A stretch of DNA of 57,131 bases from positions 1-57,131 of IMG/VR virus record IMGVR_UViG_3300021365_000017. One strand, written 5' to 3'. The translations under genes were made by a program, and so were the position numbers. The notes below the pieces were generated by a model. It searched no databases. It had not been told where the DNA came from and saw only the letters and a program-made list of their open reading frames with translations. The DNA comes from a virus. Shown in pieces: positions 1,346 through 26,900 of this stretch; position 1 is the first letter of the stretch, and the number at the start of each line of letters is the position of its first letter.

Positions 1346-1350
1346 GGGCA

Positions 1351-1357
1351 CAATATA
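1351..1357 (-). promoter_or_regulatory. Degenerate -7 element TATATTG upstream of lysozyme
   Basis: The minus strand reads TATATTG, one T short of TATATTTG, ending 5 nt before the ATG at 1345. The position matches the perfect boxes in front of other late genes, so it is probably a weak version of the same promoter. Confidence 0.35.
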
Positions 1358-1408
1358 CGGAATCTAATAGCGTTAAGGATGTAGACAAACCTTTAAACCC
1401 CTTCCATT

Positions 1409-4518: not shown

Positions 4519-5640
4519 TCAAAACCTCCGCTCTGTAATTCTCCTTACTTGCTCCTCTCTATAGAAGGGGTCTAGCTCTGCACCGAAACAAATCTGACCC
4601 CAGTTAGCCAGCACAATTTGAAGGTCGGTAACTGTAAAGAAGCCATCCCCATTTAGGTCTCCCTCAATCCAGTCTATATCTCCCAGATGCGCAAGCATCA
4701 GCATCAAGTCGTTCATACCTACAACCAAATCACCACTGATATCTCCTGCGCAATACGGGTCACCTGTCGTGAGTCCCGGCCTAGTGATTTCAATCATGTT
4801 GTGCATGCGTTCAATCTGACCAGTGGTAAAGTGTTGCCTGCATGAATCTACGTAGTAGTCCATGTGGTTATCTGGTGTATAGCTGTATAGTGCAGGAGGG
4901 CATATTGGATTTTCACAGCTCCAGTTTAGTTTGGTTGGTGGAGTGTCACAAACAAAGTCTCCTGTCTCCTCGCAATCACCGAGGTCTTGGCCGCAGTTAT
5001 CTACGTTTCGAAAGACATGCTGTAGGCTTAGGAAATGTCCCACCTCATGGATAAGTGTTTTGTTCTCATCTCTATTATTCAGTAGGTGGTCTCCGAGTCT
5101 TCCGAATACACTTGTCTTGACCCACACTCCGTCTAGCGTTGTTTGAGGTGTGTAAGCTGTCCACGCAAAACCAAGTATGCCTTGACAAAAAGCTGGGAAC
5201 ACATGTACATTCATTACCGTCTCCCTATCCCATACGATATCCTCTAGGTAATTATTCATAGAAATAAAGGCAAACCCATTGTAAGGAACGCAGTTAGTGT
5301 TGAGTAACGCATAGGAATCCTCGTACTCATCAAAGTCATGGTACTCTATGGATAGTAAATCAAACTCGTACATCGCCTCCTCGAACTCCTCATTCAAATG
5401 AGCAGCTGCATCGTTAACGACATAGGTAGGTAGATTGCTGTGGGGTATGCTGTCGGTGTGATAGATATGAATGACGTAGTTGACCGTCTTCCATTCTGGT
5501 TCATCTGGAAAGAACCCCATTGTTCTTACAGCTAAATCCTCCGGTTCCCCGAATGTGACACACTGAGAATTGACCCTGCTCACAAACAAGAGGGTAAGCA
5601 TCCATAGGATGAAGATTGCATGGAACTTATAGCGTGACAT
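4519..5640 (-). CDS. Secreted M43 (pappalysin-type) zinc metalloprotease with dockerin-like C-terminus
   Basis: A 373-residue protein (start at ATG 5640; ATG 5664 and GTG 5676 are alternatives). It has a signal peptide with hydrophobic core IFILWMLTLLFV and cleavage near VNSQ. The zinc site IHEVGHFLSLQHVF begins near residue 197: HExxH plus a third His, the M43 consensus. Paired Cys residues follow (DNCGQDLGDCEETGDFVCDT), then the Met-turn region HMDYYVDS. Residues about 295-350 hold two EF-hand-like repeats, GDISGDLVVGMNDLMLMLAH and GDLNGDGFFTVTDLQIVLAN, as in type I dockerin. Secreted proteases of this kind are host-type enzymes in Bacteroidetes and odd in a phage. A role in surface remodelling, lysis or virion penetration is inference. 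Confidence 0.85.
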   Translation of the reverse strand: MSRYKFHAIFILWMLTLLFVSRVNSQCVTFGEPEDLAVRTMGFFPDEPEWKTVNYVIHIYHTDSIPHSNLPTYVVNDAAAHLNEEFEEAMYEFDLLSIEYHDFDEYEDSYALLNTNCVPYNGFAFISMNNYLEDIVWDRETVMNVHVFPAFCQGILGFAWTAYTPQTTLDGVWVKTSVFGRLGDHLLNNRDENKTLIHEVGHFLSLQHVFRNVDNCGQDLGDCEETGDFVCDTPPTKLNWSCENPICPPALYSYTPDNHMDYYVDSCRQHFTTGQIERMHNMIEITRPGLTTGDPYCAGDISGDLVVGMNDLMLMLAHLGDIDWIEGDLNGDGFFTVTDLQIVLANWGQICFGAELDPFYREEQVRRITERRF

Positions 5641-5715
5641 GTGGTTGAGTTTAGGGTATAGCATTCCCTCGCACACTATTAGTATTCAACAAGAACGATA
5701 GCCACGTTTCCAAAA

Positions 5716-6295: not shown

Positions 6296-6784
6296 ATGAA
6301 TAAGTTAAACATCACATACAAGCGAGGCATCAACACGATGGACTTGACAGCAGAGGGATACGGAGTCATTCAGGAGAAGGTCACCGACGTGTTCGTCGAT
6401 GGTGAATTCAGAATGTTCATCTCCAAGGACGAAGTGACCAAGGAGTACACTGCATGGGAGGACAATGACAGCGAAATGTTCTCCGGAGGATTGACCTTGA
6501 GAGAGTGCAAGGAGAACGTCGAGCGAGTGCTGTTGAAGGAAGCCCGTGAGGACAACCAAGACGCATACGAGGACGCGATACTGGAGCGCAGATACATGCG
6601 TAACCTCAAGGATGCTTGCACCACTCCAAGTGAGCGGTTCGAGGCTCAGGAAGCCATCGACATTGCTCAATCGAAGCTGGACACGTTGCAGGCTGAGTAC
6701 GTTGCGATACTGGAACGCTTGAAGCCATTGATGCCAAGCCACGCAAAGAGCATGGCGCAAATTAGATTGGGTTCTGCACAATAA
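6296..6784 (+). CDS. Early protein, unknown function, 162 residues
   Basis: The first gene of the rightward block. The N-terminal half is beta-rich (EGYGVIQEKVTDVFVDGEFR) and residues about 75-160 form a long charged helical region (LERRYMRNLKDAC; LDTLQAEYVAILERLKPL). No family recognised. Its last codons and stop overlap the CACAATAA part of the next promoter cassette. Immediate-early expression and host-takeover functions are inferred from position only. Confidence 0.65.
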   Translation: MNKLNITYKRGINTMDLTAEGYGVIQEKVTDVFVDGEFRMFISKDEVTKEYTAWEDNDSEMFSGGLTLRECKENVERVLLKEAREDNQDAYEDAILERRYMRNLKDACTTPSERFEAQEAIDIAQSKLDTLQAEYVAILERLKPLMPSHAKSMAQIRLGSAQ

Positions 6785-6817
6785 AGCGAGATTGAGAAGC
6801 GTTAACACTATAGAAAC
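6777..6817 (+). promoter_or_regulatory. Early promoter cassette, copy b
   Basis: CACAATAAA (6777) is followed by GCGTTAACACTATAGAAAC (6799-6817). The distance from the first C to the G of TATAG is 36 nt, matching other copies. It precedes the ArdC-like gene and lacks the TTAACA palindrome. Confidence 0.6.
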
Positions 6818-6818
6818 A

Positions 6819-6840
6819 GGGGAGGCAAATCGGTCTCCCC
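6819..6840 (+). promoter_or_regulatory. Leader hairpin before the ArdC-like gene
   Basis: A perfect 6-bp inverted repeat GGGGAG / CTCCCC with a 10-nt loop lies between the TATAG element and the ATG at 6855. No other early leader has it. It could shield or pace translation, or act as a processing site. Confidence 0.5.
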
Positions 6841-6854
6841 ACAAATTGAAAGCC

Positions 6855-7796
6855 ATGAGTAAAGCAAAGAAAGACGTCTACCAGCAGGTCACCGACCGCA
6901 TCATCGAGGGTCTCCAGACCAAGGGTCTCCAATGGTTCAAGCCTTGGAACGCTGGACAAGGCATGGGTGCTATGATGCCCATCAACAACACCACGGGGAA
7001 AGCCTATCGTGGTCTCAACCAGCTGTTCCTCTGCATCGAGCAGACGGCCAATGGCTACGAGCACAACGAATGGTTGACCTACAAGCAGGCGGCTAAGGCT
7101 GGCGGCAATGTAGTCAAGGGTTCTACAGGCACTGAGATTGTGTTCTGGAACATCAGCTACGTTGACCCAACGGCCAGCCCAGCTAAGTTCTACCGCAAGG
7201 TGACTGACGCTCCTGCCAGCATCCGTCCGCTGTTGAAGAAGGTCTTCAGCCCACGTCTCTGGAACGTGTTCAACATCGCCCAGTGCGAAGGTATCGAGCC
7301 ACGTCGCAAGCCCGTGACTCCGGTTGAGCCAGCGGAGCAGTTCAATCCAATCGGTGAGGCTGATAAGGTGTACGCAGAGCTGTACCCCACCAAGCACAAG
7401 CCCACACTGGGTCATGGTGGAGCCAGCGCGTTCTACGCTCCAATGCGCCATCACGTCCAGATGCCCAAGCCTGAGACGTTCGTGACGAACGATGACTACT
7501 ACAAGACTCTGTTCCACGAGTTGGTGCACAGCACTGGTCACGAGGATATCTTGAACCGCCTGAACAAGGTGGCCGCCTTCGGGTCTGAGGACTACAGCAA
7601 GGAGGAGTTGGTGGCTGAGATTGGTGCTCAGTTCCTCGTCGGTCTCACAGGCATCGAGCCAAAGGATGACCACGTAAACAGCCAAGCCTACGTCAACAAC
7701 TGGGTGAAGCAGTTGAAGGATAAGCCGAAGATGGCTCTGTCAGCCGCGAACAAGGCAATGAAGGCTGTGGACTTCATCATGGGGGGAGAGGTGTGA
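6855..7796 (+). CDS. ArdC-like antirestriction protein with zincin domain
   Basis: A 313-residue protein starting at MSKAKKDVYQQVTDRIIEGL. Residues about 1-130 match the ArdC N-terminal (DUF1738) pattern: LQWFKPWN, NNTTGKAYRGLN, NEWLTYKQAAKAGGNVVKG, IVFWN. The C-terminal half carries a metallopeptidase-like site, FHELVHSTGHED (HExxH) with a downstream Glu in ELVAEIGAQFL. ArdC proteins bind single-stranded DNA and protect incoming DNA from restriction. An upstream in-frame ATG at 6792 would run through the promoter cassette, so 6855 is preferred. Early expression fits defence evasion. Confidence 0.85.
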   Translation: MSKAKKDVYQQVTDRIIEGLQTKGLQWFKPWNAGQGMGAMMPINNTTGKAYRGLNQLFLCIEQTANGYEHNEWLTYKQAAKAGGNVVKGSTGTEIVFWNISYVDPTASPAKFYRKVTDAPASIRPLLKKVFSPRLWNVFNIAQCEGIEPRRKPVTPVEPAEQFNPIGEADKVYAELYPTKHKPTLGHGGASAFYAPMRHHVQMPKPETFVTNDDYYKTLFHELVHSTGHEDILNRLNKVAAFGSEDYSKEELVAEIGAQFLVGLTGIEPKDDHVNSQAYVNNWVKQLKDKPKMALSAANKAMKAVDFIMGGEV

Positions 7797-7806
7797 GCCT
7801 CCCCTC

Positions 7807-7820
7807 CGCCCTTCGGGGCG
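7807..7820 (+). terminator. UUCG-type hairpin after the ArdC-like gene
   Basis: CGCCC-TTCG-GGGCG forms a perfect 5-bp stem with a stable tetraloop, 10 nt after the stop codon. No T-run follows (the next bases are TTAACATTAA), so it is either a weak terminator or a 3'-end stabiliser in front of the next promoter cassette. Confidence 0.5.
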
Positions 7821-7884
7821 TTAACATTAATTCACAAGTAACGCACAATAAAACGAATACATCCAGCGTTACTACTATAGAAAC
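7821..7884 (+). promoter_or_regulatory. Early promoter cassette, copy c
   Basis: A diverged first element (TTAACATTAATTCACA) is followed by CACAATAAA (7844) and GCGTTACTACTATAGAAAC (7866-7884). The C-to-G distance is 36 nt. GTAACG upstream and CGTTAC downstream are complementary. Confidence 0.65.
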
Positions 7885-7892
7885 GAGAGAAC

Positions 7893-8228
7893 ATGAAAAA
7901 ATACGACTCAACACCGATTGCATACGCAAGCTACCCAAACACCGGAGTAGTCCGAACTGACCGCAAGTTCCGCGCCACAATCCAGTTCCACACTGGGAGC
8001 GCATGGAGCAAAGGGACATGGGCTTGCTCGAAGACGTTCAACAACGAGAGCCACATAGACAACTTCATCGCATACATGGAGAGGACTAAGGGTTGGAACG
8101 TCGATGAGGTATGGTATGGAAAGAACCTGACTCCCCTTGAGGACTCTTGGGCGTATGCTGGCGATGCTGTAAAAAAGAAGTTTCACAAGCCTAATGGCTG
8201 GAAGGCTAGACGCTCTGCCGGATACTAA
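7893..8228 (+). CDS. Early protein, unknown function, 111 residues
   Basis: No family recognised. The protein is basic and aromatic (SAWSKGTWACSKTFNNESHI; KGWNVDEVWYGKN; KKKFHKPNGWKARR). It stands alone between two promoter cassettes, so it has its own transcription start and is likely made in quantity early in infection. The stop codon abuts the TTAACA element of the next cassette. Confidence 0.65.
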   Translation: MKKYDSTPIAYASYPNTGVVRTDRKFRATIQFHTGSAWSKGTWACSKTFNNESHIDNFIAYMERTKGWNVDEVWYGKNLTPLEDSWAYAGDAVKKKFHKPNGWKARRSAGY

Positions 8229-8290
8229 TTAACATCCGTTAACAACCTGAGCACAATAACAAGAAGCCCTTCTGCGTTATTACTATAGAA
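8229..8290 (+). promoter_or_regulatory. Early promoter cassette, copy d (most complete)
   Basis: Perfect TTAACATCCGTTAACA (8229-8244), CACAATAAC (8252-8260) and GCGTTATTACTATAGAA (8274-8290). AATAAC pairs with GTTATT, and AGAA-GCCC-TTCT lies between them, so the spacer can fold into a hairpin. The ATG follows 22 nt after the TATAG. Confidence 0.75.
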
Positions 8291-8310
8291 GCCACCAATA
8301 GATAAATTAC

Positions 8311-8604
8311 ATGGGACAGAAAGCAATTCAAATAGACACGATGACATGCGGACAGCACTTCCTTCCCGCCATCTTTAACGGGGACACCGAGTCCCTAGGC
8401 GCACACGAAGAGTATCTCTTGGAGCGCGAGGTGAGGTGGTATCAGATGCAGGGAGAGGAGGACTACCCCAACTTCGTTAGCATCGAGTTCGAGTGCACAT
8501 CAAGCGAGCGATACATGTGCGGATGTGACCTAACAGGGCATCTCGGTGAATGTGTAGAGGTGAAGGTCTTTGTGTTCCTAGATGAGAACTACGTGAAAGA
8601 TTAA
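8311..8604 (+). CDS. Early protein, unknown function, Cys-containing, 97 residues
   Basis: No family recognised. It has five Cys residues (MTCGQ; FECTSS; YMCGCDLTGHLGEC), four of them spaced so that they could bind a metal together with His. The rest is acidic (YLLEREVRWYQMQGEEDYPN). It has a single-gene transcription unit between cassettes d and e; its TAA lies within the next TTAACA element. Confidence 0.6.
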   Translation: MGQKAIQIDTMTCGQHFLPAIFNGDTESLGAHEEYLLEREVRWYQMQGEEDYPNFVSIEFECTSSERYMCGCDLTGHLGECVEVKVFVFLDENYVKD

Positions 8605-8661
8605 CATCCGTTAACAGACTGCGCACAATAACAGCAAACCTGCCGCGTTATTACTAAAGAA
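8601..8661 (+). promoter_or_regulatory. Early promoter cassette, copy e
   Basis: Perfect TTAACATCCGTTAACA (8601-8616), CACAATAAC (8624-8632) and GCGTTATTACTAAAGAA (8645-8661), with TAAAG in place of TATAG. The C-to-G distance is 35 nt. The leader AAAAACAATTCAATATG follows. Confidence 0.7.
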
Positions 8662-8684
8662 GACATCATTAAAAACAATTCAAT

Positions 8685-9890
8685 ATGAGAGTTACCACGA
8701 AAAACAACAAGGCCTTCACGCCTGATTCCAAGTCAGCCATCATCGCACTTGTGAGGTTACGACGTTCGTCATTCCAAAGCATCTACAAGGTTGAGCAAGC
8801 AATCAGAGATGAGTACATCAAGCTTACAGCTAACAGCTTCGGTGTCATCCCAGCAGATTACTATCAACTACAAAAGCCCGTCAACGCTAAGGCAATGGCA
8901 AAGGCTAGATTGGCTGTAATTGGGGGGACAAGTACTACTATTTGCAGGCGATTCCTTGAGGTCGTACCAAATATGTCTGACTACACGATATCGCTGTGTG
9001 AACAGGGTGAGGCTGTATTAGAGGAGGCAAACGGCAACGGGTCAAGCCATTCAGCTTACAGCAATCGAGTAAGTGAGTATGACCTGAATCGAGTCTTAGA
9101 ATTTGTCTTGGAGAAGAAGCACCTTGATAACCAAGAGCTACTGGACTACAACGAAGACGTTAAGAGGTCTATTAAACGGGGCAAGTATCTCAAGGCGGTG
9201 CGCGAAGGTGACCCTCTGCGTGCTGGGCTGGAGGAAGGTCAGGTGTGCTATGAGTTCACTGATGCCGTGTTCGATGACCACATCGACATGTTCACCAATG
9301 TGCTGTTCATTGGTCACCAACTGCGTGTTGTGAAGGATACAGATTGCAACATGTACACCATTCAAAAACTGACCACCAACGCCCATGAACCATGGAGAAC
9401 AGTTGGATTCGAGGACAAGTTGTACGATGTTATCGTTGGGTTATCTGGCACATTGCTAAACAAGGAGCTAAGGGCTGTAGAGTCAGCCGTTCGACAATGC
9501 GAGCGAGGTCAACCTATGATTCAAGACCTATTCACACCGGATGAGATTCGACAACTGGCTGATACCCAGTGCGTGCAACTGCCAAAGCAGACTACGTTTT
9601 CTGTAGTGAAAGTTGGCACAGAGTCTTTCGGGTGCGTTGAATGCTCTAAGGTCAAGCCAGAGGCGAACGTGATTGCATCTGGACTCAAGTATGAGGATGC
9701 TGATAAGTTGCGAGGCTTATCATCCAAAGACGCTGAAGCAAAGCGACGAGTGGAGAAAAAAGCCAATCGCATCAACAACATGAGAGAACAGCTCGTTCAA
9801 GAAAGGGCTGAGTTGGTTAAGCTGGAAGAGGAGCAAGAGCAAGCTGAAAGCAACTTGACTAATCACCAGAACCAAATACAGGCGGCATGA
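8685..9890 (+). CDS. Large early protein, unknown function, 401 residues
   Basis: No family recognised. A basic N-terminus (MRVTTKNNKAFTPDSKSAII) leads to a helical body. Two Cys pairs occur (QVCYEF; SFGCVECSKVK). The last 60 residues form a heptad coiled coil (RINNMREQLVQERAELVKLE, ending EEQEQAESNLTNHQNQIQ). It is the largest early gene without an assignment. Its TGA overlaps the ATG of the small following gene (ATGA), so the two are translationally coupled. Confidence 0.65.
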   Translation: MRVTTKNNKAFTPDSKSAIIALVRLRRSSFQSIYKVEQAIRDEYIKLTANSFGVIPADYYQLQKPVNAKAMAKARLAVIGGTSTTICRRFLEVVPNMSDYTISLCEQGEAVLEEANGNGSSHSAYSNRVSEYDLNRVLEFVLEKKHLDNQELLDYNEDVKRSIKRGKYLKAVREGDPLRAGLEEGQVCYEFTDAVFDDHIDMFTNVLFIGHQLRVVKDTDCNMYTIQKLTTNAHEPWRTVGFEDKLYDVIVGLSGTLLNKELRAVESAVRQCERGQPMIQDLFTPDEIRQLADTQCVQLPKQTTFSVVKVGTESFGCVECSKVKPEANVIASGLKYEDADKLRGLSSKDAEAKRRVEKKANRINNMREQLVQERAELVKLEEEQEQAESNLTNHQNQIQAA

Positions 9891-10054
9891 TATTCGATAA
9901 CGCACACAACCCATTCATCGAGCTTGACCTATCGAAGGAAGAGCTGGTGGAAGCATACAACTTCTTCCAAGGAGTTGACCTAGAATCCCAGATGCTTGTA
10001 GCTGATGCACTTGATGCTAAGTACAGCTTGATGGAGTTAATTAACATCCGTTAA
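9887..10054 (+). CDS. Small acidic early protein, 55 residues
   Basis: The ATG at 9887 overlaps the stop of the preceding gene (ATGA). The frame encodes MIFDNAHNPFIELDLSKEEL, then a helical acidic region, ending in LMELINIR. The final codons and TAA are read from the TTAACATCCGTTAA palindrome itself, so the regulatory element doubles as coding sequence. No family recognised; the coupling supports its being real. Confidence 0.6.
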   Translation: MIFDNAHNPFIELDLSKEELVEAYNFFQGVDLESQMLVADALDAKYSLMELINIR

Positions 10055-10103
10055 CAAACGACGGACAATATCTCAGAACACGGTGCGTTCTAACTATAGA
10101 AAC
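10041..10103 (+). promoter_or_regulatory. Early promoter cassette, copy f
   Basis: Perfect TTAACATCCGTTAACA (10041-10056), GACAATATC (10064) and GCGTTCTAACTATAGAAAC (10085-10103). The inner arms change to AGAAC/GTTCT, so the inverted repeat is kept while the bases differ from copy d. Confidence 0.7.
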
Positions 10104-10122
10104 ACCACAAAAACAATTCACC

Positions 10123-10368
10123 ATGATTAAAATCATTTTAACAACAGAAGACGGATGGGACTGCGCTCCCGCCATCATGGAGGTATCCGAGCTACTACCA
10201 CATGCTCGTGAGATGCACTACGAGATTCAGTGTTGCAAGAGAAGCATGAGCGCGAAGGATATGCTTAGTGACCTGAACGATTTCGTTACCGACCTCAAGC
10301 AAAGGATAGACGATGCCGCTGAAGAATTAGAAGGAGTTGAATTTCAAACCGTTGAAGATGAAGAGTAA
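10123..10368 (+). CDS. Early protein, unknown function, 81 residues
   Basis: No family recognised. A mostly helical acidic protein (MIKIILTTEDGWDCAPAIME; DLNDFVTDLKQRIDDAAEEL). Preceded by cassette f and the leader AAAAACAATTCACCATG. Its end overlaps the next gene by 11 nt (ATGAAGAGTAA), which links the two in translation. Confidence 0.6.
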   Translation: MIKIILTTEDGWDCAPAIMEVSELLPHAREMHYEIQCCKRSMSAKDMLSDLNDFVTDLKQRIDDAAEELEGVEFQTVEDEE

Positions 10369-10588
10369 AGCCGCAATCCCAGAGAAAGGTCAGTTGACCG
10401 ACATGATTATAAACTTCGAGGAGCAACAGTGTACCATCGAAGAGATACTGGAGTTGTTCTCCGTGCTCATCCAGACTGGCATGGCATGGTCTCTTCAGGG
10501 TAGCTACGGGCGGTTGGCTCGTCACCTCATCGACCAAGGAAGTTTATCCGATGATGGCACAATAACTCACGAGTTCCTGCCGTTCTAA
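10358..10588 (+). CDS. Early protein, unknown function, 76 residues
   Basis: The start at ATG 10358 (MKSKAAIPEKGQLTDMIINF) is preferred over an upstream in-frame ATG at 10337 because it gives a short stop/start overlap with the previous gene. The body is helical (EEQQCTIEEILELFSVLIQT). The C-terminal codons are read from promoter cassette g. No family recognised. Confidence 0.55.
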   Translation: MKSKAAIPEKGQLTDMIINFEEQQCTIEEILELFSVLIQTGMAWSLQGSYGRLARHLIDQGSLSDDGTITHEFLPF

Positions 10589-10598
10589 TTATAGAAAC
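10558..10598 (+). promoter_or_regulatory. Early promoter cassette, copy g, inside the end of a gene
   Basis: CACAATAAC (10558) and CCGTTCTAATTATAGAAAC (10580-10598) are 36 nt apart from C to the G of TATAG. The inverted repeat here is AACTC-AC-GAGTT. The cassette is embedded in the last codons of the 76-residue gene and drives the gene at 10615. Confidence 0.65.
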
Positions 10599-10614
10599 CA
10601 AAAAACAATTCAAT

Positions 10615-10848
10615 ATGAGTATGTTCGATAAAACCCCACGTCACTTCAGCGTGACACAAAACAAGGCCACCGAAGCCGGAGTCATGAAGATTCAAATCGG
10701 AAAGCTTGAGCTGTCAATCACAACGCTCAACGGAATCAATGAAGCTGTGGTGTTCTCAGAGAGCGGAGACCAAGTTTCTGAGACTAAGTTCACAGATTTC
10801 AACGAGGTCATCTCGTTATTCTGGAAGCTGGAATCACTCGACATTTAA
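10615..10848 (+). CDS. Early protein, unknown function, 77 residues
   Basis: No family recognised. The protein is beta-rich (MKIQIGKLELSITTLNGINE; AVVFSESGDQVSETKFTDFN) with a short C-terminal helix. The leader AAAAAACAATTCAATATG precedes it, 21 nt after the TATAG of cassette g. It shares a transcript with the following gene, which has a leader motif but no cassette. Confidence 0.6.
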   Translation: MSMFDKTPRHFSVTQNKATEAGVMKIQIGKLELSITTLNGINEAVVFSESGDQVSETKFTDFNEVISLFWKLESLDI

Positions 10849-10874
10849 GTTAAACCCCCAAAAAACAATTCACC

Positions 10875-11354
10875 ATGGGATTAGATATGTACCTGACTCG
10901 TAACCACTATGTGCGGAACTGGAGTCACCGACCAGACAGAGACTACAAGGTCTCTGCGAAGATGAACAACAAGCGTGTACCCTTCCTCGGAAGCGTAGGC
11001 GAAGTGACCAGCATCCGTGAGGAGGTGCTGTGCTGGAGAAAAGCCAACGCCATCCACAAGTGGTTCGTTGACAACGTGCAGGACGGAGATGATGACTGCG
11101 GGAAATACTACGTAGGTATCGAGCAACTACAAGAGTTGCGACACGCCTGCCTTGCCGTCATCGCATCGCCAGAGCGAGCCGAAGAACTACTACCTACGCA
11201 AAGTGGGTTCTTCTACGGGAGCACAGAGTTTGATGAGTACTACTTGGAGGACTTGCGTATGACCGCAAAGACTATCGAGAAGCTCGTGAAACAGCAAATC
11301 CAAGCCAAGGACATGAAGCACTCGATGGACTTCGAGTACAGCTCATCTTGGTAA
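10875..11354 (+). CDS. Conserved phage protein of the MGLDMYL type, unknown function
   Basis: A 159-residue protein. Its start MGLDMYLTRNHYV and the blocks AIHKWFVDNVQDGDDDCGKY and FFYGSTEFDEYYLEDL are, from memory, a recurring set in phage proteins of many hosts. Function is not established. The conserved Asp, His and Cys residues could form an active or metal site, but nothing confirms this. It is preceded by the leader AAAAAACAATTCACCATG without a TATAG element. Confidence 0.65.
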   Translation: MGLDMYLTRNHYVRNWSHRPDRDYKVSAKMNNKRVPFLGSVGEVTSIREEVLCWRKANAIHKWFVDNVQDGDDDCGKYYVGIEQLQELRHACLAVIASPERAEELLPTQSGFFYGSTEFDEYYLEDLRMTAKTIEKLVKQQIQAKDMKHSMDFEYSSSW

Positions 11355-11417
11355 TTAACATCCGTTAACAAGCGGAGCACAATAACCCAGAAAGTCTGGC
11401 GTTATAGATAGAGAAAC
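11355..11417 (+). promoter_or_regulatory. Early promoter cassette, copy i
   Basis: Perfect TTAACATCCGTTAACA (11355-11370), CACAATAAC (11378-11386) and GCGTTATAGATAGAGAAAC (11399-11417). The spacer holds the best hairpin of the set: ATAAC/GTTAT outside and CCAGA-AAG-TCTGG inside. Confidence 0.75.
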
Positions 11418-11433
11418 CAAAAAACATTTCATT

Positions 11434-11838
11434 ATGAGTGAAGTAAATAGTAATATCGAGTGGACGGATGAGGCAATGATGGCCTTCTGTCAAGTGTATG
11501 CAGGCAACATCAATTCGCCACGACTGCCAATGCAAATCAGCTACAAGAAGTATCACAAGCTGAAGATTAATGAGAAGCTGGAAGCATTCAAGCGAGACTG
11601 GTCAGAGTACCAGCGTAAGCTTAAGTTTCCCTTCAGTGAGGGAGATGAGCATTGGGTGCTGGGTGGTGATGGCATCCTCCGCTACAGCGTATGGGACGAC
11701 GTGTCCGAGGAAGACCACATGGCCAACCCCGACCTCAGGTACTTCACCTTTGAGCAGGGCATAGACATGGCTCGTCGCAACGGAATCCTGAACGACTACA
11801 ACAGCCTGATTGGTCTTCTAAAAGCCCCAACGCCATGA
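11434..11838 (+). CDS. Early protein, unknown function, 134 residues
   Basis: No family recognised. A basic, aromatic protein (MQISYKKYHKLKINEKLEAF; RDWSEYQRKLKFPFSEGDEH) with an acidic centre. It overlaps the next gene by 4 nt (ATGA), which links it to the DUF7249-like protein. Driven by cassette i with the leader AAAAAACATTTCATTATG. Confidence 0.6.
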   Translation: MSEVNSNIEWTDEAMMAFCQVYAGNINSPRLPMQISYKKYHKLKINEKLEAFKRDWSEYQRKLKFPFSEGDEHWVLGGDGILRYSVWDDVSEEDHMANPDLRYFTFEQGIDMARRNGILNDYNSLIGLLKAPTP

Positions 11839-12122
11839 GTTACGAGTCATTCCGCAACAGAGAGACGTGGTTGGTCAACGTCTGGGGTTTTGTTGATGGT
11901 CTCGCAGAGACCTACATCGACACCGAGAATCCGAACGACCTAACGGGAGTAACCCCTCAGTGGTGTAGAGATTGCTTCGACATGATAGTCGAGGATACCT
12001 ACAACAAATTACCTAACGGAATCCTCAAGGACTTCGTTGATGGATGCCTTCAGGCAATCGACTGGCACGAGCTGTCAATGACGGTGAAGGACACAATAAA
12101 AGAGCAACGAGAGACGTTGTAG
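11835..12122 (+). CDS. DUF7249-like early protein
   Basis: A 95-residue protein whose start MSYESFRNRETWLVNVWGFV fits the 'NxETWxVxLW' pattern of small phage and mobile-element proteins now placed in DUF7249. The remainder is an acidic helical domain with Trp and Cys (TPQWCRDCFDMIVEDTYNKL). Function unknown. Its end contains the CACAATAAA part of cassette j. Confidence 0.55.
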   Translation: MSYESFRNRETWLVNVWGFVDGLAETYIDTENPNDLTGVTPQWCRDCFDMIVEDTYNKLPNGILKDFVDGCLQAIDWHELSMTVKDTIKEQRETL

Positions 12123-12133
12123 CTGTATAAAAC
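12092..12133 (+). promoter_or_regulatory. Early promoter cassette, diverged copy j
   Basis: CACAATAAA (12092) is followed by ACGTTGTAGCTGTATAAAAC (12114-12133), with TATAA at 12126. The C-to-end distance is 38 nt, slightly longer than in other copies. The leader AACATAACCCC matches that before the gene at 6296. Confidence 0.45.
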
Positions 12134-12148
12134 ATAACCCCTTTTACA

Positions 12149-12367
12149 ATGAGTAATACAACAGAAGATATGAGCCGTGAGGATACGATGGCAATGCACT
12201 TCGAGCTTCACGACAGCAAGACAGTGTGCCGTCTGTTCCTTGATGTTTGTCGCAGGTACGACCTAGGTAACATAGACCAGAGCCAAATGGTGCAGGCATG
12301 CATGCTGGTCGCAGACGAAGCAGAAAAACTTGGGTTGCGAGACCCCCTAAAAGAATGGGAGTTATGA
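12149..12367 (+). CDS. Unknown protein, 72 residues
   Basis: No family recognised. Acidic and helical (MSNTTEDMSREDTMAMHFEL; ADEAEKLGLRDPLKEWEL) with two Cys (VCRLFLDVCRRYD). It is the first gene of the compact overlapping operon; its TGA overlaps the ATG of the next gene (ATGA). Confidence 0.6.
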   Translation: MSNTTEDMSREDTMAMHFELHDSKTVCRLFLDVCRRYDLGNIDQSQMVQACMLVADEAEKLGLRDPLKEWEL

Positions 12368-14550: not shown

Positions 14551-14624
14551 GCTCTCGTAGCTCAACTGGATAGAGCATCACCCTTCTAAGGTGAATGTTG
14601 CAGGTTCGAGTCCTGCCGGGAGTA
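14551..14624 (+). tRNA. tRNA-Arg, anticodon TCT
   Basis: A 74-nt cloverleaf: acceptor GCTCTCG/CGGGAGT (first pair G-T), D arm GCTC...GAGC, anticodon stem TCACC/GGTGA with loop CTTCTAA giving TCT, variable loop of 5, and T arm GCAGG-TTCGAGT-CCTGC. The discriminator is A and CCA is not encoded. It reads AGA (and AGG) and lies in the plus operon between the SSB-like gene and the first DnaA-IV-like gene. Confidence 0.95.
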
Positions 14625-14639
14625 CAAAATTTTATTTCA

Positions 14640-20504: not shown

Positions 20505-20967
20505 CATAATCAGTGTATGTGATTGTACATTCCTCACACTCCAGTGCCGCTGCAATGGGAGGGTAAACTCTTTTGTATGCTGCGGTCGAGCCACCGACAA
20601 ATCCAGTGGACGCGATGTTCTCCGTCTGGGTATTGCCAAGCAAGAGGCACCCACTAGTATCGTCCTCATCGTTGCCGCAATGAATAAGGATGTGCTTGAA
20701 GTTAGGTACATCTAATACCTCAAGCATTCCCTTGTGCATTTCACCAAACCTTTTAGTGTATCTGTCGTGGTATCCACCCCAAGTCTTCAGCCTTAGCTTG
20801 TATGTTCCCGCAGGGATTCGGGTCTCATGCATGACCTTCTCTTTTCTATCCTCGTCCTCAAGGGTGAAGCAAAGAAACTCACGGAACTCTGTCCCGTTGC
20901 TCACATCAAACAACAGCCCCAGCGTGTCCCGCTCTTGGCTGCTAAACCTCATTACTTCTAGTTTCAT
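20497..20967 (-). CDS. DUF5675 protein, probable lysis-associated
   Basis: A 156-residue protein matching DUF5675: FCFTLEDEDRKEKV-type start, RIPAGTYKLRLKTWGGYHDR, GMLEVLDVPNFKHILIHCGN and DEDDTSGCLLLGNTQ. Conserved His, Cys and Asp residues in IHCGN and TSGCLL suggest an active site; the family is commonly found beside holins. It may act on peptidoglycan, but this is not established. It is coupled at both ends by short overlaps (ATGA with the giant gene; 8 nt with holin). Confidence 0.75.
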   Translation of the reverse strand: MKLEVMRFSSQERDTLGLLFDVSNGTEFREFLCFTLEDEDRKEKVMHETRIPAGTYKLRLKTWGGYHDRYTKRFGEMHKGMLEVLDVPNFKHILIHCGNDEDDTSGCLLLGNTQTENIASTGFVGGSTAAYKRVYPPIAAALECEECTITYTDYDG

Positions 20968-23900
20968 TCTTCTACGGATTCTATGTACTGCTCCTCAACA
21001 TAGAACGAAGGTCTGACGATGGCCAGATAAGAGTCAATGAATGTCTTGAACTTTTCAAACTCTTGCGGCTCCATGTCTTGACTCTTCCCTCTGAGGTAGG
21101 CGTAGTAATCTCTAGCGTTCTTAAGTTGCTTAGGTAGCTTTCGAGCCTCTCTGATGTATGACTTGTAGTCCTCTGGGTATTCATCCTTCATCACCTGCTC
21201 CGCCACCAATGGCTTGACAGAAGAGCGGAAGCTGTCAGCGGCACGCTTCTTATCAAACACAGATTCTTTGTCTTCGATGACTTTCATGATTCTCTCCTCA
21301 CCTATGACCTCTCCCTCAAGGTTGTTGCCATACTTTTCTGCAATTACCTCATACGCAGCGAGTGCCTCCTCGTTGGACAACCTCCTGTCTTTTGGTAGGT
21401 CATCCATTTCACGGACAAGAACATCAATCTCTTTACTAGACAGCCCAAACATCTGACCAGCAAACAAAAATGTCTTCATGTAGTAGTGTAACTCCATTGC
21501 CTCTTTGTCTTCTGGTCTAACGAAGTACTCCGTCCCGTTGCTCGACACCACGCGGTTCGGTGGTAGCGCAAGGTTTTCCGCAACCGTTCTAGCATCGTCA
21601 AGGAAGTCTCCATACGGGCCAAGGAATCTAGTGAACCCTTGAGTTACATCCTTCGGGGCAGACTTGTAGTACATCGGAGCACCCTTGCTTAGCCTTGTCC
21701 ATCTTTCGTATCCATCATCATCACCTAAATCAAAATCACCTTCCATCATTACATCGTAGGGATAGAAGAGGAACATGTTTAAAGCACCCTTGACTTGATT
21801 GTCAAAGATTCCCATTGGCGGGAGCGGATTCGCATCGACAACCACCTGAGATAAAATGTCTCTCCATCTCGAATCTTTTGGCATCTCCTCTTCGTCGTCG
21901 TCGATAAACATACTGGAGATTGCAGGAATCAAAACCTTTCCGATGTAAGCAAAAAGAGTAAGCTCAGCAGCGTGCCCAAGCATAGCAATACCACCCTCTT
22001 TTTTAGCTTGCGCATCACCCTTGTAGATTCTCATTGCATCCGACGAGATGCTTCGCTTCTTGTTTACGGCGAATCTTGAGAACGGAAGAAGAATGTTTTG
22101 TGCGAGGTAGGCAATGATAGATTTCACACCTTTCTCCTGCATGTATAAATCAGCCGCCTCTCTTGGAGTAGATGCCGCTTGGTCTTTGTTCACCATTGCG
22201 TCAGCATAACTCAATGCTGTAGAGTTGGGGGTAACAGCTTCCGCGTCCCAGTCAATCTGGTCAAAGCTTTCAACGACACCTTCGGTAATTAAGGCATCAC
22301 CATAGAACGTAAACCACGATGCTACAGCCGCAACCTTGTCAGTGCCCTTAAGGTTCTTCAAGCTTATATCACTCATAGTCCTGACAATCTTTTGAAGGTT
22401 GCCTTCATCAAGGCTCATCCTCCCTGTGTATGGGTCGATGTTACCTGCCTCGTAGTCCCTCTGGAATACAGGAGAGTTTTGAAGTAGTTTGTACCTACCG
22501 TCATCAAGAGCAAGCTTAGCGTCTTTGCCCGCTAGAGTCTTCAAGGAGAAGTAAACCATCTCCGATAAGGTTGTAAGCAGATATGGGATAGATTGAATTG
22601 GGTTCTTAGTCTGAAACATGACCGACGTAAGGACTGTACTCTGCTTCAGAGTTTGAATACCGAAGCTACCGAATGCCCTTACGATGACCGCATTACGAAG
22701 CAGGTTGATGGGATTGATGAATCTAAAACCAATAGCCTTGAATGTAGGCTGGAATACTGGAGGAACCTTACCAGTGTCTTGCTGCACATACAGCATGATT
22801 TTTCTCTCAAGCTCCATGCGAACTTTAGCATTCGGGATGAAGGCTTTCATTGCGTCGCTGTTCAGGACATAGCTTGAACGGACAACTGAACCAACGGTGT
22901 TGGATAATATGATGTTGTCTCTCAGCGTCCTCTCGTTAACAGATAGAAAATCAAGACCGATTCTATTCTTACCCTTGAGTGAACGAGGATTTCTCTCGAA
23001 GCTACTTCCAGCCACCTTCTTGGTTTGAGACAGTGAACTACTTGCTAATGCATCGTTCAATGAAATCCGTAGACTAAGCATGTCATCTACATCTCTTGAG
23101 CCTGTCTCTGGAATAACCTCAAATGCCGTATAGTTATCCTCAACAACCAACTCCTTGCCAAGATATCTCTCGACGTAGTTTCTAAACGCTGGCATGAGGC
23201 TGGAGTGAATGTCCGACGTAAACTGAACCATCTCCACTACGTCCTTACGTTCCGACTCAACCCGAGCAATCATTTCTGAAAGAGTTTCAGCCTGACCAAA
23301 CATGTAATTGAATGCATCTTCAAACTCATCAATCTCTTCATTAGAGAAAGACTGCTGCTCGGAGTAGTAATCAATCGTTCTGCGCATAGAGTTTCGAAGC
23401 TCCAAGTACCAAGCCGCCTCAGCTTGGCCACGCTCACCCTCAAACTCAGGCATCTGCTTAGCCATAGAGTACAGCTGCATAATAGCTCTGTCCATTCTGG
23501 TTGTTACGCTTCCCCCATCTTCGGTAATTCTGTTAATCTCATTCTCCAACAACTCAACCACCTGACTGTGAATGAAATCCGCATTAGCAAAGTCATTGGT
23601 TAGCTGTGCCAAACCGATAGCAACCCTAAGCTTTGCGAAGGTTATCCTGTCTGTTGGAATCACATTAGACAGATAGGAGTTTACAGTATCTAGCATGCCA
23701 AAGAACGCACCCTTTCTCGCTTTCAATCCCTTACGCCTTACAAGCTGTTCGAGCTTGCTAGGCATGTCGATATTCCCCTGAACCAAAGCGTGCATGTATC
23801 CGATGCCATATACCGAATCATTAATGAGGTAATCGTCAAGCCTGTAATCAAGGTTGATGATGTGATGTCTCTTTAGTTTATTGAGCCTTGCTCTGAGCTT

Positions 23901-26900
23901 ATCAAAGTCCAAGTCTGCCACGCTGTAGATACCAAGGATGTCCGCAATTTGCGTATCCTCTAGGAGTTTCTCAATGTTGGCTACAATCCTTGGTAGTAAC
24001 ACGTCATTAATAATGGCATCCTTCTGTAGCTCCTCTTTCGTTACAGCCTGTTCAGCCAGAATCTGAGTAATCAAATCAACATGAGCCGGGTTGCTCGCAT
24101 TAAGGACAACAGTATCACCCGTATCTGGGTGTTGGATTGTTGGGTTGTCATCAATGAACTTAAGTATAGCTCTGCGGCTAGAAGACAATCTACTCCTCTC
24201 GTAATTCTGAACCAGCTTCTTATACTCCTCCTCTACGGTGGTGTTGTTCTTTGCTGCACGCAGCTGAGCGCGAGCCATGAAAACAGCCTGTCTACCCAGC
24301 TCCTCCATCGCTTGATAGTTGCTAAGCTTATTGTACAAAATACCAGCCTCGGTCTTAGGGAAAGCAACACCAACATAGGCCTCAATCTCTGGCTCAAAGA
24401 CAGCCTTGGCCTTGGACATTGAGCTGATGGTTGACATCAGTGTACTGACGAATCCTTCCAGCTCGTTCTGAGGAAGAAGTGCAGGGTTGATTGAGGCTAA
24501 ACCGTTTGCAATCTTCGCGTAGGTAGTTACGTTTTTTGCTGCACCGCTTCTACCCTTTGGCCTAGCCATTCTTTTGATTCGCTTCTGCAACTTCTGAGCA
24601 TGCTTGATGCCGTCTAGGTATCGCTGCATCTCAGCCTTAGAGTCTCTCTTATCAAAGATGACAGAGATTTTGTCGATGAAGGTTTGCATAGCCTCCATAC
24701 CCTGCTCCTCAATCTTCTTTCCGCTGGTTTTGTGCGCCTGTCGGATGGCCTTAACCATTGCTGTAATTTGGGAGCGGGTGAAGGGAGTCTTTGAATCCTC
24801 TTTCATGCGCCCATCAATCAGTTCAATCGCCTTAGTCAAGAACTCATTAAAGGTCTTGGACTTATCCTTCAGTTGAGTGAGAGCTTTCTGTAAGTTCTTT
24901 GCCTTGGTTCCCATCTTTCGGGTCTCGGCTGCATTAGCGATAGCTACACGCATACCCTCTTTCTTCCCTTGAGAACGCCCCTGCTTATAGGCTACAGCTT
25001 TCTTGAACAGCATATCAGCCCCCTCCTTAGAAAGACCCATGTCCATCAAGGTCTTAATAACCTCAGGCTTGGCGTAAGCAAAAGCATCTAGCTGTTGAGA
25101 TTCATCCAACCCTGTAACAGGATTCTTTCTGCGCTTATCTCTGGTGATGATAGGTGACGGGTATGCCTTATCAATCATTTGAGAAACCTTCTTCAGGAAG
25201 CTACCTTGAGCTTTAGATTCTGAGTCAACGATAGCTTGAGCCTTGGGTCTAGTCTTACCAAAGCCATAAGCCGCCTGAAGCAATCCCATACTTCCCTTCC
25301 ACCTGCCGTCAATAGCCTTGCGTTCGTTTGCATCACTCCTTCGAACACCATCCTTCGTGGCATACTCACCGTCAGCAAGCTTGGCCTCCATGAAGTCCGA
25401 CCTACTGAGGCCTGTTTCGTTGTCAAGCATCACATCGTTGACATGAGGTTTGTCTGCGAACAAGTGAATCTTTGGTGTCTTTTTATTTCCGCCAGCATTT
25501 CTCATGACCACGGCAGCAGGGAATGCCTCGTTGCCCGGCATCATGTCAACCTCAAGGTCTGAGTCAACCTCGATGGCGGCGTACACCACATCTTTAGGAA
25601 CACCTTGAAGGTGACCCTCAATCATAGAGAGAACAAGTGTCCTCTTGAGCGTGCTTCCAACTTGGGATTTTGTAAGCTTGCTTACACCCGTAATTTCTTT
25701 TACTTTATCGAGAGACTTAGGGTTTTCTCTAATCACAGACATGCGCCCGAGGTTAGCGAACAGCTTATCCATGTAAGCCCTCCTTAATTCAAAGGATGTG
25801 TTGTCAGTTCTGCGAAGACTTGCCTCCACAGCCGAACGAATGTCTGCTCTCTTTCCCTTGAACTTAACCTTCTCACCGTATCTACCTTCTTTCTTTGCTG
25901 GTAGTGCATCAATGATATCATTCAAAGAGTCTACGATAAGTTTGTCGATTTGATTTTGCGTAAGGATACCTTCCCCTACTAACCTATCCATGAGGTTAAG
26001 ACCTGCCTCCATTGTGGTGATGTTACTCTTCACCTTGTCGTCAGTTCCACTGACAAGCAAAACATGAACCTTACCGTCAGGAGACTTAGCCCTCATCTTG
26101 TTGACGGTATTCTTGAATGCGCTAGCGTCTCCCTTTTGTCCAAACGCCCATGTGTTCTTTGTTCGAACTGGATAAAACAATCCGCCTCCGCCTTCAGCTA
26201 AGACTTCTTCGTCAAGAAAAACAGTACCAACAAGCATGTGGTCTGGAGATGATACTATCACCTGACTCTCATTCAGCACCTCATCAAACACGGCATTGTG
26301 AAGTACGACACTAGCACTCTCTTCAAACTCACCATCTTCTACCGCGTATCTGTTTGAGATGCGACCAAATTTCTGAGCCTTGTTGCTGAAAGACACCTTG
26401 GTGTCCATGCCGTCTTGACCCGGAAGGATGTGCTGAAACTTAATCGGCGCGCCGTCCTTAGTGACCATGCTAAATCGTTCGTCAGTTACAGGAACTTTTT
26501 CTACGTCTTTAGCAAGGACGAGAGCACCAATCTGAATAACCTCAGATGCGCTTACAATAGGGTTGCCGTCCCTTTTGTCATAGAACCAGCTGTGACGGAA
26601 AGGGTTCATGCCCACCTGCACCCATCCCTCGTGCTTTCCTACAGGGTGGTCTGAGATGTTGTACTGGTCGCTATCCATGATGTCTACCGCACGTTGGCGG
26701 AGCTGCTGTGAATCGTGATTCCTCCAGTCGCCAAACATGCGGGCAATAGGACTCTTGCTTTTCTCTGTTGCAATTTGAAATGCGAACTTCGGCATGGCAA
26801 GGAACTCAACATCACTAATCAGTCCCGTTTGACCATACCCAATAGAGCCCCCCATGTTTGGAGACCTCACGTCATTCGTAGAGCCTTGGTGAATGGAAAC

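Follow-up and report, generated by a model that had tools for sequence, protein, structure and literature searches.

Which RNA polymerase, and which sigma factor, reads a block of phage genes in which one gene after another stands behind the same short element? The early genes of a phage are usually transcribed with the host primary sigma factor or by a phage enzyme. The window examined here, the whole 57,131-nucleotide (57 kb) stretch of a crAss-related phage record, carries nine copies of a cassette recognised by a sequence model, and these probably represent a dedicated promoter class of the early block that is of the ECF type and is read by the host polymerase together with a host ECF sigma factor. 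The copies and the genes they serve are as follows, the +1 positions being predictions.

1348-1389, plus strand: ninth, weaker copy before ORF 1409-1873; matrix score 22.5, model score 21.4 bits; predicted +1 A 1383 by geometry
6776-6818, plus strand: element before the anti-restriction gene 6855-7796; CAATAA 6779-6784, CGTT 6800-6803, predicted +1 A 6812
7843-7885, plus strand: element before ORF 7893-8228; CAATAA 7846-7851, CGTT 7867-7870, predicted +1 A 7879
8229-8293, plus strand: TTAACATCCGTTAACA (8229-8244) and element (8251-8293) before ORF 8311-8604; CGTT 8275-8278, predicted +1 A 8287
8601-8664, plus strand: TTAACATCCGTTAACA (8601-8616) and element (8623-8664) before ORF 8685-9890; CGTT 8646-8649, predicted +1 A 8658
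10041-10104, plus strand: TTAACATCCGTTAACA (10041-10056) and element (10063-10104) before ORF 10123-10368; CGTT 10086-10089, predicted +1 A 10098
10557-10599, plus strand: element before ORF 10615-10848; CGTT 10581-10584, predicted +1 A 10593
11355-11418, plus strand: TTAACATCCGTTAACA (11355-11370) and element (11377-11418) before ORF 11434-11838; CGTT 11400-11403, predicted +1 A 11412
12091-12133, plus strand: diverged copy before ORF 12149-12367; CGTT 12115-12118, predicted +1 A 12127; matrix score 20.0, model score 21.9 bits
6855-12367, plus strand: genes served by the strong copies (the early block), taken as early from their content rather than from measurement

The cassette reads in the order CAATAA, 14-15 nt, CGTT, 8 nt and a near-fixed, putative TAG start that is often followed by GAAACC, and all nine window copies keep this spacing of 14 or 15 nt between the two boxes. 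Their scores with the sequence model, which was built in part from the strong copies, are 21.4-32.4 bits (E 3e-8 to 1e-4). The first-pass annotation had counted eight sites, all of which are present at the coordinates it gave, and had overlooked the one at 1348 in front of the ORF at 1409. Its distance of 35-36 nt between the C that opens block 1 and the G of TATAG holds for the seven good copies and extends to the ninth; the 38 nt ascribed to the eighth (12092) becomes 36 once that copy, which reads TATAT at this point, is registered on CGTT, and the distance from the G to the start codon, put at 17-41 nt, measures 12-41 nt to the ATG. Most sites are intergenic as described, the exceptions being 6777, where block 1 overlaps the 3' end of the preceding ORF 6296-6784, 10558, where block 1 lies inside the 3' end of ORF 10337-10588, and 12092, where most of the copy is inside the 3' end of ORF 11835-12122. 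Four copies (8252, 8624, 10064 and 11378) share the exact 16-mer TTAACATCCGTTAACA, which starts 22 nt 5' of block 1.

Taken alone, TTATTACTATAG is mildly enriched in the window, with eight matches at up to two mismatches against 3.4 expected and 2 of 100 shuffles reaching as many. When the two boxes are scored jointly the real copies reach 20.0-46.5 against a maximum of 18.2 in 30 one-strand shuffles, and a refined matrix gives the window copies 27.3-45.5 against a maximum of 15.0 in 20 first-order Markov resamples. The two boxes together are not the product of chance.

Scanning related phages with a motif built from the copies, a check proposed in the first-pass annotation, adds 62 copies in ten related records and brings the total to 71 in 11 records. 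Every one of the 71 is on the early-gene strand and has a gap of 10 or 11, and an ORF start follows 5-50 nt downstream in 67 of them (random expectation 21%); the number of copies, their strand and their position near ORF starts support the prediction of a dedicated early-block promoter class. In the 52 aligned distinct copies CAATA, CGTT and the A are invariant throughout, the copies having been gathered using matrices, which bears on the invariance of CGTT. The A of TAG is preceded by a pyrimidine in 66 of the 71 copies, and by the pyrimidine/purine rule this A, and not the G one base on, would fit as the start base. At E <= 5 the motif finds no match in the whole of MW202828 or in the searched parts of elemoA, phi18:3, phi38:1, Gundel_1 and phi14:2. 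The exact element pattern occurs in 28 stretches in viral contigs. Three candidate carriers of the pattern (L107, L111 and L115) have no homology to the phage clade and look like chance, and 26 of the 53 loci newly added by the 16-mer pattern likewise have no such homology and are probably chance.

The cassette shows the two sequence features of an ECF-type promoter, namely a CGT-type -10 box and a second conserved box near -30/-35 at near-fixed spacing. It does not look like a Bacteroidota primary-sigma promoter, which has TAnnTTTG at -7: within 120 nt upstream this box is found before none of the 27 plus-strand starts and before 7 of the 31 listed late (minus-strand) starts, which agrees with the earlier claim that the two signals are distinct. 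Over the whole window TAnnTTTG shows no enrichment, with 35 occurrences expected and 31 found, but there is a bias towards the minus strand, which has 24 of them and the plus strand 7.

Instead of forming a core promoter, the boxes could be operators bound by a regulator of the phage or of the host, as part of the phage copies contain the near-palindrome AATAAC..GTTATT and TTAACA repeats are spaced 10 nt apart. However, no other promoter is seen, TAnnTTTG being absent from the 120 nt upstream of the 27 plus-strand starts, the spacing, the distance to the ATG and the fixed start-like TAG suit a promoter, and the second box varies without a matching change in the first. The operator reading is thus improbable.

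A candidate sigma factor is suggested by bacterial genomes. A model built from the phage copies by sequence alone was run over 121 Bacteroidaceae genomes, where it gives 10 matches at E <= 0.01 against about one expected, the E-values being rough. Of 30 bacterial loci examined, 16-17 have the match directly before a gene against 7.8% at random points, a control that is not matched for base composition, such that AT-rich intergenic DNA alone can favour matches; one of the 30 (L241) was scored at a place other than its model match. T9SS genes recur among these matches, with six of the 30 loci being porV (two), porE (two), porW and sprA above the NCBIfam cut-offs. ECF sigma genes lie directly before two bacterial sites and directly behind a third.

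porV was followed up in loci picked by protein, namely the best 30 of 55 genomes with a match. CAATA[AT]-N13-15-GTT is found upstream of porV in 15 of 29 of these Bacteroidales loci, one of the 30 being left out for too little upstream sequence, where 0.43 are expected; leaving aside the seed genome, which was first found by the motif, the count is 14 of 28. The other strand of the same regions has none, and upstream of the control gene rpe the pattern occurs in 1 of 28 regions (two of 30 left out for the same reason). Among 6-mers upstream of porV, ACAATA ranks second, CAATAA fourth and CGTTAT ninth. Scored by the phage matrix, a single one of the 29 regions from these best 30 genomes reaches 12 and 6 reach 5, with none on the control strand, and therefore the bacterial boxes appear looser than those of the phage, above all the second. 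Most bacterial sites are weaker than the phage sites. In a phylum-wide draw the boxes stand before porW in 2 of 22 upstream regions (0.39 expected; eight of 30 loci were left out for unclear starts, the match beginning deep in the protein), which does not bear out conservation of the boxes at T9SS genes throughout the phylum. Phylum-wide, the strict pattern gives 0 of 395 and 1 in the reversed control, and the phage model gives 21 matches against 8 expected. rpe was considered as a general member of the regulon and rejected, the element being upstream of it only in G011 and G012, and G011 giving the only scoring region among the 28.

Among the closest known systems is that of Porphyromonas gingivalis, where SigP is described as an ECF sigma factor that runs T9SS genes and binds the porV promoter (PMC4800418). 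The motif that this study suggests (PMC4800418), read as alternatives, fits few phage copies (10 of 79), against 6 of the 15 porV sites. The study also reports no SigP binding upstream of sov (PMC4800418), although one of the bacterial sites found here precedes sprA/sov. The phage sites differ from these promoters in being stronger and in carrying TTAACA repeats and GAAACC. The SM6 promoters of Flavobacterium psychrophilum, whose starts were mapped by experiment, have a CGT box at -10, serve T9SS genes and are ascribed to an ECF sigma factor (PMC9723704); the likeness to the cassette is one of the -10 box and the genes served. The PM2 promoters of Bacteroides thetaiotaomicron are near-palindromic with boxes centred at -10 and -30, but are described as tied to stress and stationary phase and not to T9SS, and the comparison is one of description and not of letters (PMC7366714). 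PM2 was later proposed to be ECF-read (PMC12596196). The presence of the boxes before Bacteroidales secretion genes suggests that what the phage uses to begin its takeover is a specialised sigma factor of the host, and not the main host sigma or a polymerase of the phage. Of the readers entertained in the first-pass annotation, an unusual sigma factor is the best fit, and there is about an even chance that it is SigP itself.

A second of those readers, a phage-modified polymerase, would be the host enzyme working with a phage-encoded sigma factor or activator whose fold escapes recognition and which imitates or redirects the ECF specificity of the host. The phage copies match each other far better than the bacterial sites match them, TTAAC stands at fixed offsets in 18 of 41 non-redundant phage copies and at none of 28 bacterial sites, and several early proteins are without a Pfam family. 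But no sigma r4 domain is found in the window and no r2 domain in ten relatives, and the factor's own genes would need to be read first, which leaves this an unlikely main reader with a small share of the probability.

The third, a phage polymerase, recalls the T7 family, whose early promoters are read by the phage's own polymerase. TATAGAAAC resembles T7/SP6 start sites, and the first-pass annotation noted a likeness to the start sites of single-subunit phage polymerases. T7-type promoters are not known to have a far box, whereas here one lies at about -30, and bacterial T9SS genes stand behind the same boxes, so this likeness looks coincidental. In the T7 family and in P23-45 with its virion polymerase (PMC10770324), one repeated promoter also stands before many early genes and is kept among relatives, but these phages have a cognate polymerase, whereas none is recognised here and the boxes occur in bacteria as well. 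Virion polymerases can occur in crAss-like phages (PMC10770324), and an unrecognised single-subunit enzyme might lie within a giant late protein, the only one in the window besides identified structural proteins that is big enough to hide it.

20964-30824, minus strand: giant protein of 3286 residues on the late strand

Searches of this protein against Pfam and PHROG gave no match, and neither phmmer nor a three-sequence profile matched it to solved polymerases. A T7-type polymerase was not found in the window by a weak search that gave no signal in any control genome either. Two records are complete as judged by their end repeats: in G004 the unassigned ORFs do not exceed 574 codons, and G001 has one of 1317 codons, which is tail fibre-like by eye. 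Promoters of such an enzyme are very improbable.

For the preferred reading, a host ECF sigma factor, it is proposed that each copy is a core promoter with CAATAA as the -30 box, 14-15 bp, and CGTT as the -10 box, and that the ninth base after CGTT, the near-invariant A of TAG, would be the transcription start. The reader would be the host RNA polymerase with a host ECF sigma, most likely that of the T9SS regulon (SigP or a relative), and most early-block genes would be transcribed from a separate start, with about 25 nt of leader. The probable role of the TTAACA repeats, which lie further upstream, is to bind an activator or to make the polymerase bind more strongly, and the late genes would use the primary-sigma box TAnnTTTG. 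More tentatively, and at somewhat less than an even chance, the early programme of this clade of uncultured crAss-related phages may run on the T9SS-controlling host ECF sigma, with the primary sigma kept for late genes, takeover gated by the signals under which the host builds its secretion and surface machinery, and the repeats acting as a phage-added amplifier that outcompetes the host regulon. This would put the alternative sigma early and the primary sigma late, the reverse of the usual order, and an early programme on a signal-controlled sigma factor would tie infection to host physiology, that is to secretion and perhaps to surface receptors. Among open-licence papers no report of a phage with such a programme was found. 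If the proposal is true, loss of one ECF sigma should block infection, the two boxes should define a T9SS promoter in Bacteroidales, and the phage promoters could be used as strong reporters of that sigma factor.

The elements might finally act as RNA, in 5' leaders or as hairpin promoters of the N4 type, which is hardly credible. RNAalifold finds no consensus pair in the 52 copies, and the spacers alone of 39 non-redundant copies fold no better than shuffles (Fisher p 0.99), on which grounds the hairpin was rejected. On the other side, the complete element has a slight folding advantage over copies with shuffled spacers (Fisher p 0.015), and some copies, those at 11378 and 8252, have palindromic spacers.

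The window spans 57,131 bases of a virus record whose crAss-type structural genes include a muzzle domain (PF25729), a portal family and a large terminase family. Among named phages its terminase is closest to that of MW202828 (46% identity), followed by those of the Flavobacterium elemo phages (41%) and of Cellulophaga podoviruses (31-34%). The minus strand carries the structural genes, and a block on the plus strand is inferred to be early from its gene content (anti-restriction protein, nuclease, primase/helicase).

about 6.3-20 kb (+): early and replication genes
14551-14625 (+): tRNA-Arg (TCT) gene amid the replication genes
20964-30824 (-): 3286-residue protein with no Pfam or PHROG match, a zincin-like HEAFHDL motif by eye, present in 10/10 relatives
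4519-5676 (-): phage-encoded M43 metallopeptidase (PF05572) with an additional dockerin-like match under the Pfam cut-off, homologs in 7/10 relatives

The proposed early promoter cassette comprises a CAATAA box (block 1), a CGTT box and, 8 nt further on, a TAG with a near-invariant A. All eight copies reported by the first-pass annotation are present and a ninth lies at 1348; the interval between the two boxes is 14 or 15 nt in 9/9. The spacing of 35-36 nt between the first C and the G of TATAG holds, but the 38 nt given for the eighth copy does not, as registration on CGTT gives 35 or 36 in 9/9. The start codon follows after 12-41 nt rather than 17-41 nt, and not all copies are intergenic, three overlapping the 3' end of the preceding ORF. 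The short string TTATTACTATAG by itself is only mildly enriched in the window; both boxes together are far above shuffled and Markov sequence.

Relatives were sought with the primase/helicase (41 loci) and with the 16-mer TTAACATCCGTTAACA (55 stretches), the latter search giving 26 loci among 53 new ones without homology to the phage clade. Scanning 98 loci and the window yielded 87 distinct copies at a score of at least 15. Ten long related records were read whole, including G001 (60,853 bases) and G004 (58,876), both complete as judged by end repeats. At a score of at least 20 the 11 records hold 71 copies, 5-9 per record, all 71 on the early-gene strand, and an ORF of at least 40 codons begins 5-50 nt after 67 of them, compared to 21% of random positions. 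Across 52 distinct phage copies CAATA, CGTT and a single A never vary, which is partly an effect of selection as the copies were collected by matrices.

The cassette is laid out like a sigma-dependent promoter. With +1 set at the invariant A, 66/71 copies show the usual pyrimidine/purine start, CGTT spans -12 to -9 and CAATAA lies around -33 to -27. As to an RNA fold, RNAalifold found no base pair in the phage copies; the spacers show no folding advantage over shuffles (p 0.99), the whole element a slight one (p 0.015). The T7-type enzyme that TATAGAAAC had suggested was not found, in a family search that also gave no match in any control. This negative is further limited by one ORF of 1317 codons without assignment in G001, fibre-like by eye. 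The cassette also has a far box, which T7-type promoters are not known to have.

This promoter class already exists in bacteria. When a bacterial and archaeal collection with one genome per species was searched with 20 letters drawn from the phage copies, two related Bacteroidaceae assemblies matched (about one chance match expected by our own estimate). Both matches have the same position, ahead of a small ORF that precedes rpe, and both keep all 20 letters despite clearly diverged spacers. A looser pattern matched five of 301 Bacteroidaceae genomes (reversed control 0). At one site porV, a type IX secretion system (T9SS) gene, follows after 35 nt, and at the others an ORF follows after 25-56 nt; but two of these five sites also fall within a 92-96-codon open frame, and the one in L158 is the loop of a terminator-like inverted repeat. 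A sequence-only model from the 52 phage copies matched 83/121 Bacteroidaceae genomes at E <= 0.5, with 10 matches at E <= 0.01 against about one expected (E-values rough); the best reached 24.4 bits, short of the 27.9-32.4 bits of the strong phage copies.

In 17 of 30 model loci (one per genome) the site closely precedes a gene start (16 safe; L241, one of the 17, was scored away from the model match), versus 7.8% of random points not matched for base composition. T9SS genes stand behind six (PorV x2, PorE x2, PorW and SprA; NCBIfam, above cut-off); at the two PorE loci the predicted start coincides with the first ATG, which would mean either that there is no leader or that the true start codon is further downstream. 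The set extends beyond T9SS, since TonB-type proteins, a sugar transferase, ResB, DUF4954 and UxaC also follow model loci. ECF sigma genes, 55% identical to each other, lie directly before two host sites (L235 and L238), and another lies directly behind a third (L262). ORFs of about 30-60 codons with FARxYRP-like ends recur just behind the element at five Bacteroidaceae loci (L228, L235, L237, L238 and L158), two of them after an ECF sigma gene.

When porV loci were picked in Bacteroidales by protein search and not by motif (30 best of 55 matching genomes), CAATA[AT]-N13-15-GTT was found upstream in 15/29 regions versus 0.43 in shuffles and none on the other strand, or 14/28 without the genome first found by motif. 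Upstream of rpe the count was 1/28 on each strand (0.3 expected). A motif-free 6-mer ranking of the porV regions placed ACAATA 2nd, CAATAA 4th and CGTTAT 9th in enrichment, behind TTTGCA, part of the primary-sigma box. The full phage matrix reached a score of at least 12 in 1/29 and at least 5 in 6/29 (control strand 0); the far box is thus common to porV and phage, the remainder being looser. Results across the phylum count against the link: the boxes occur before porW in 2/22 genomes (0.39 expected; several starts uncertain), a strict pattern in 0/395 (reversed control 1), and the model gave 21 matches at E <= 0.02 versus 8 expected, where 6 of the 19 loci gained precede genes (random points 8.5%, again unmatched for base composition). 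The element thus stands out at T9SS genes in Bacteroidales, its presence elsewhere being unproven.

The P. gingivalis ECF sigma SigP binds the porV, porT, ruvA and porP promoters and not those of sov or porK (PMC4800418); the motif suggested in that paper, read as alternatives, fits 6/15 porV sites and 10/79 phage copies. Within the porT promoter, one PorX-bound stretch contains ACAATATC, a block 1 form found in phage copies (PMC8265659). F. psychrophilum SM6 comprises mapped T9SS-gene promoters whose -10 box is CGT and which have been attributed to an ECF sigma (PMC9723704). B. thetaiotaomicron PM2 is a second, near-palindromic promoter class whose boxes centre on -10 and -30 (PMC7366714), later proposed as ECF-read (PMC12596196). 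Part of the phage copies are near-palindromic (AATAAC..GTTATT) with boxes placed as in PM2, and therefore PM2, SM6 and the cassette may be one class, likened by described layout and not letter by letter. No report of the class as early promoters of a phage clade was found in the open-licence literature searched.

It is proposed that the early genes most likely start from ECF-type promoters, which the host enzyme would recognise through an ECF sigma linked to T9SS, and that most early-block genes would have their own transcription start. TTAAC units lie 5' of block 1 at fixed offsets of 22, 13, 12 or 3 nt (once 23) in 18/41 non-redundant phage copies versus 0/28 host loci, which makes them a phage addition, probably an activator site. 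The late genes would most likely use the primary sigma, as the TAnnTTTG box occurs within 120 nt of 7/31 late starts versus 0/27 plus-strand starts. Of these seven late starts, all on the minus strand, six (55947, 44115, 33388, 30824, 4484 and 3081) have the box beginning just 9-13 nt ahead of the codon, where almost no leader would thus remain; for the seventh (40294) the distance is 27 nt.

The cassette model does not match the different early element repeated in MW202828 (stretch 43000-60850, L101). This perfect palindrome, GTGTCGTTAACGACAC, stands a short way ahead of the start codons of at least seven early genes (ORFs 1574, 1841, 2632, 2926, 4709, 5963 and 6908).
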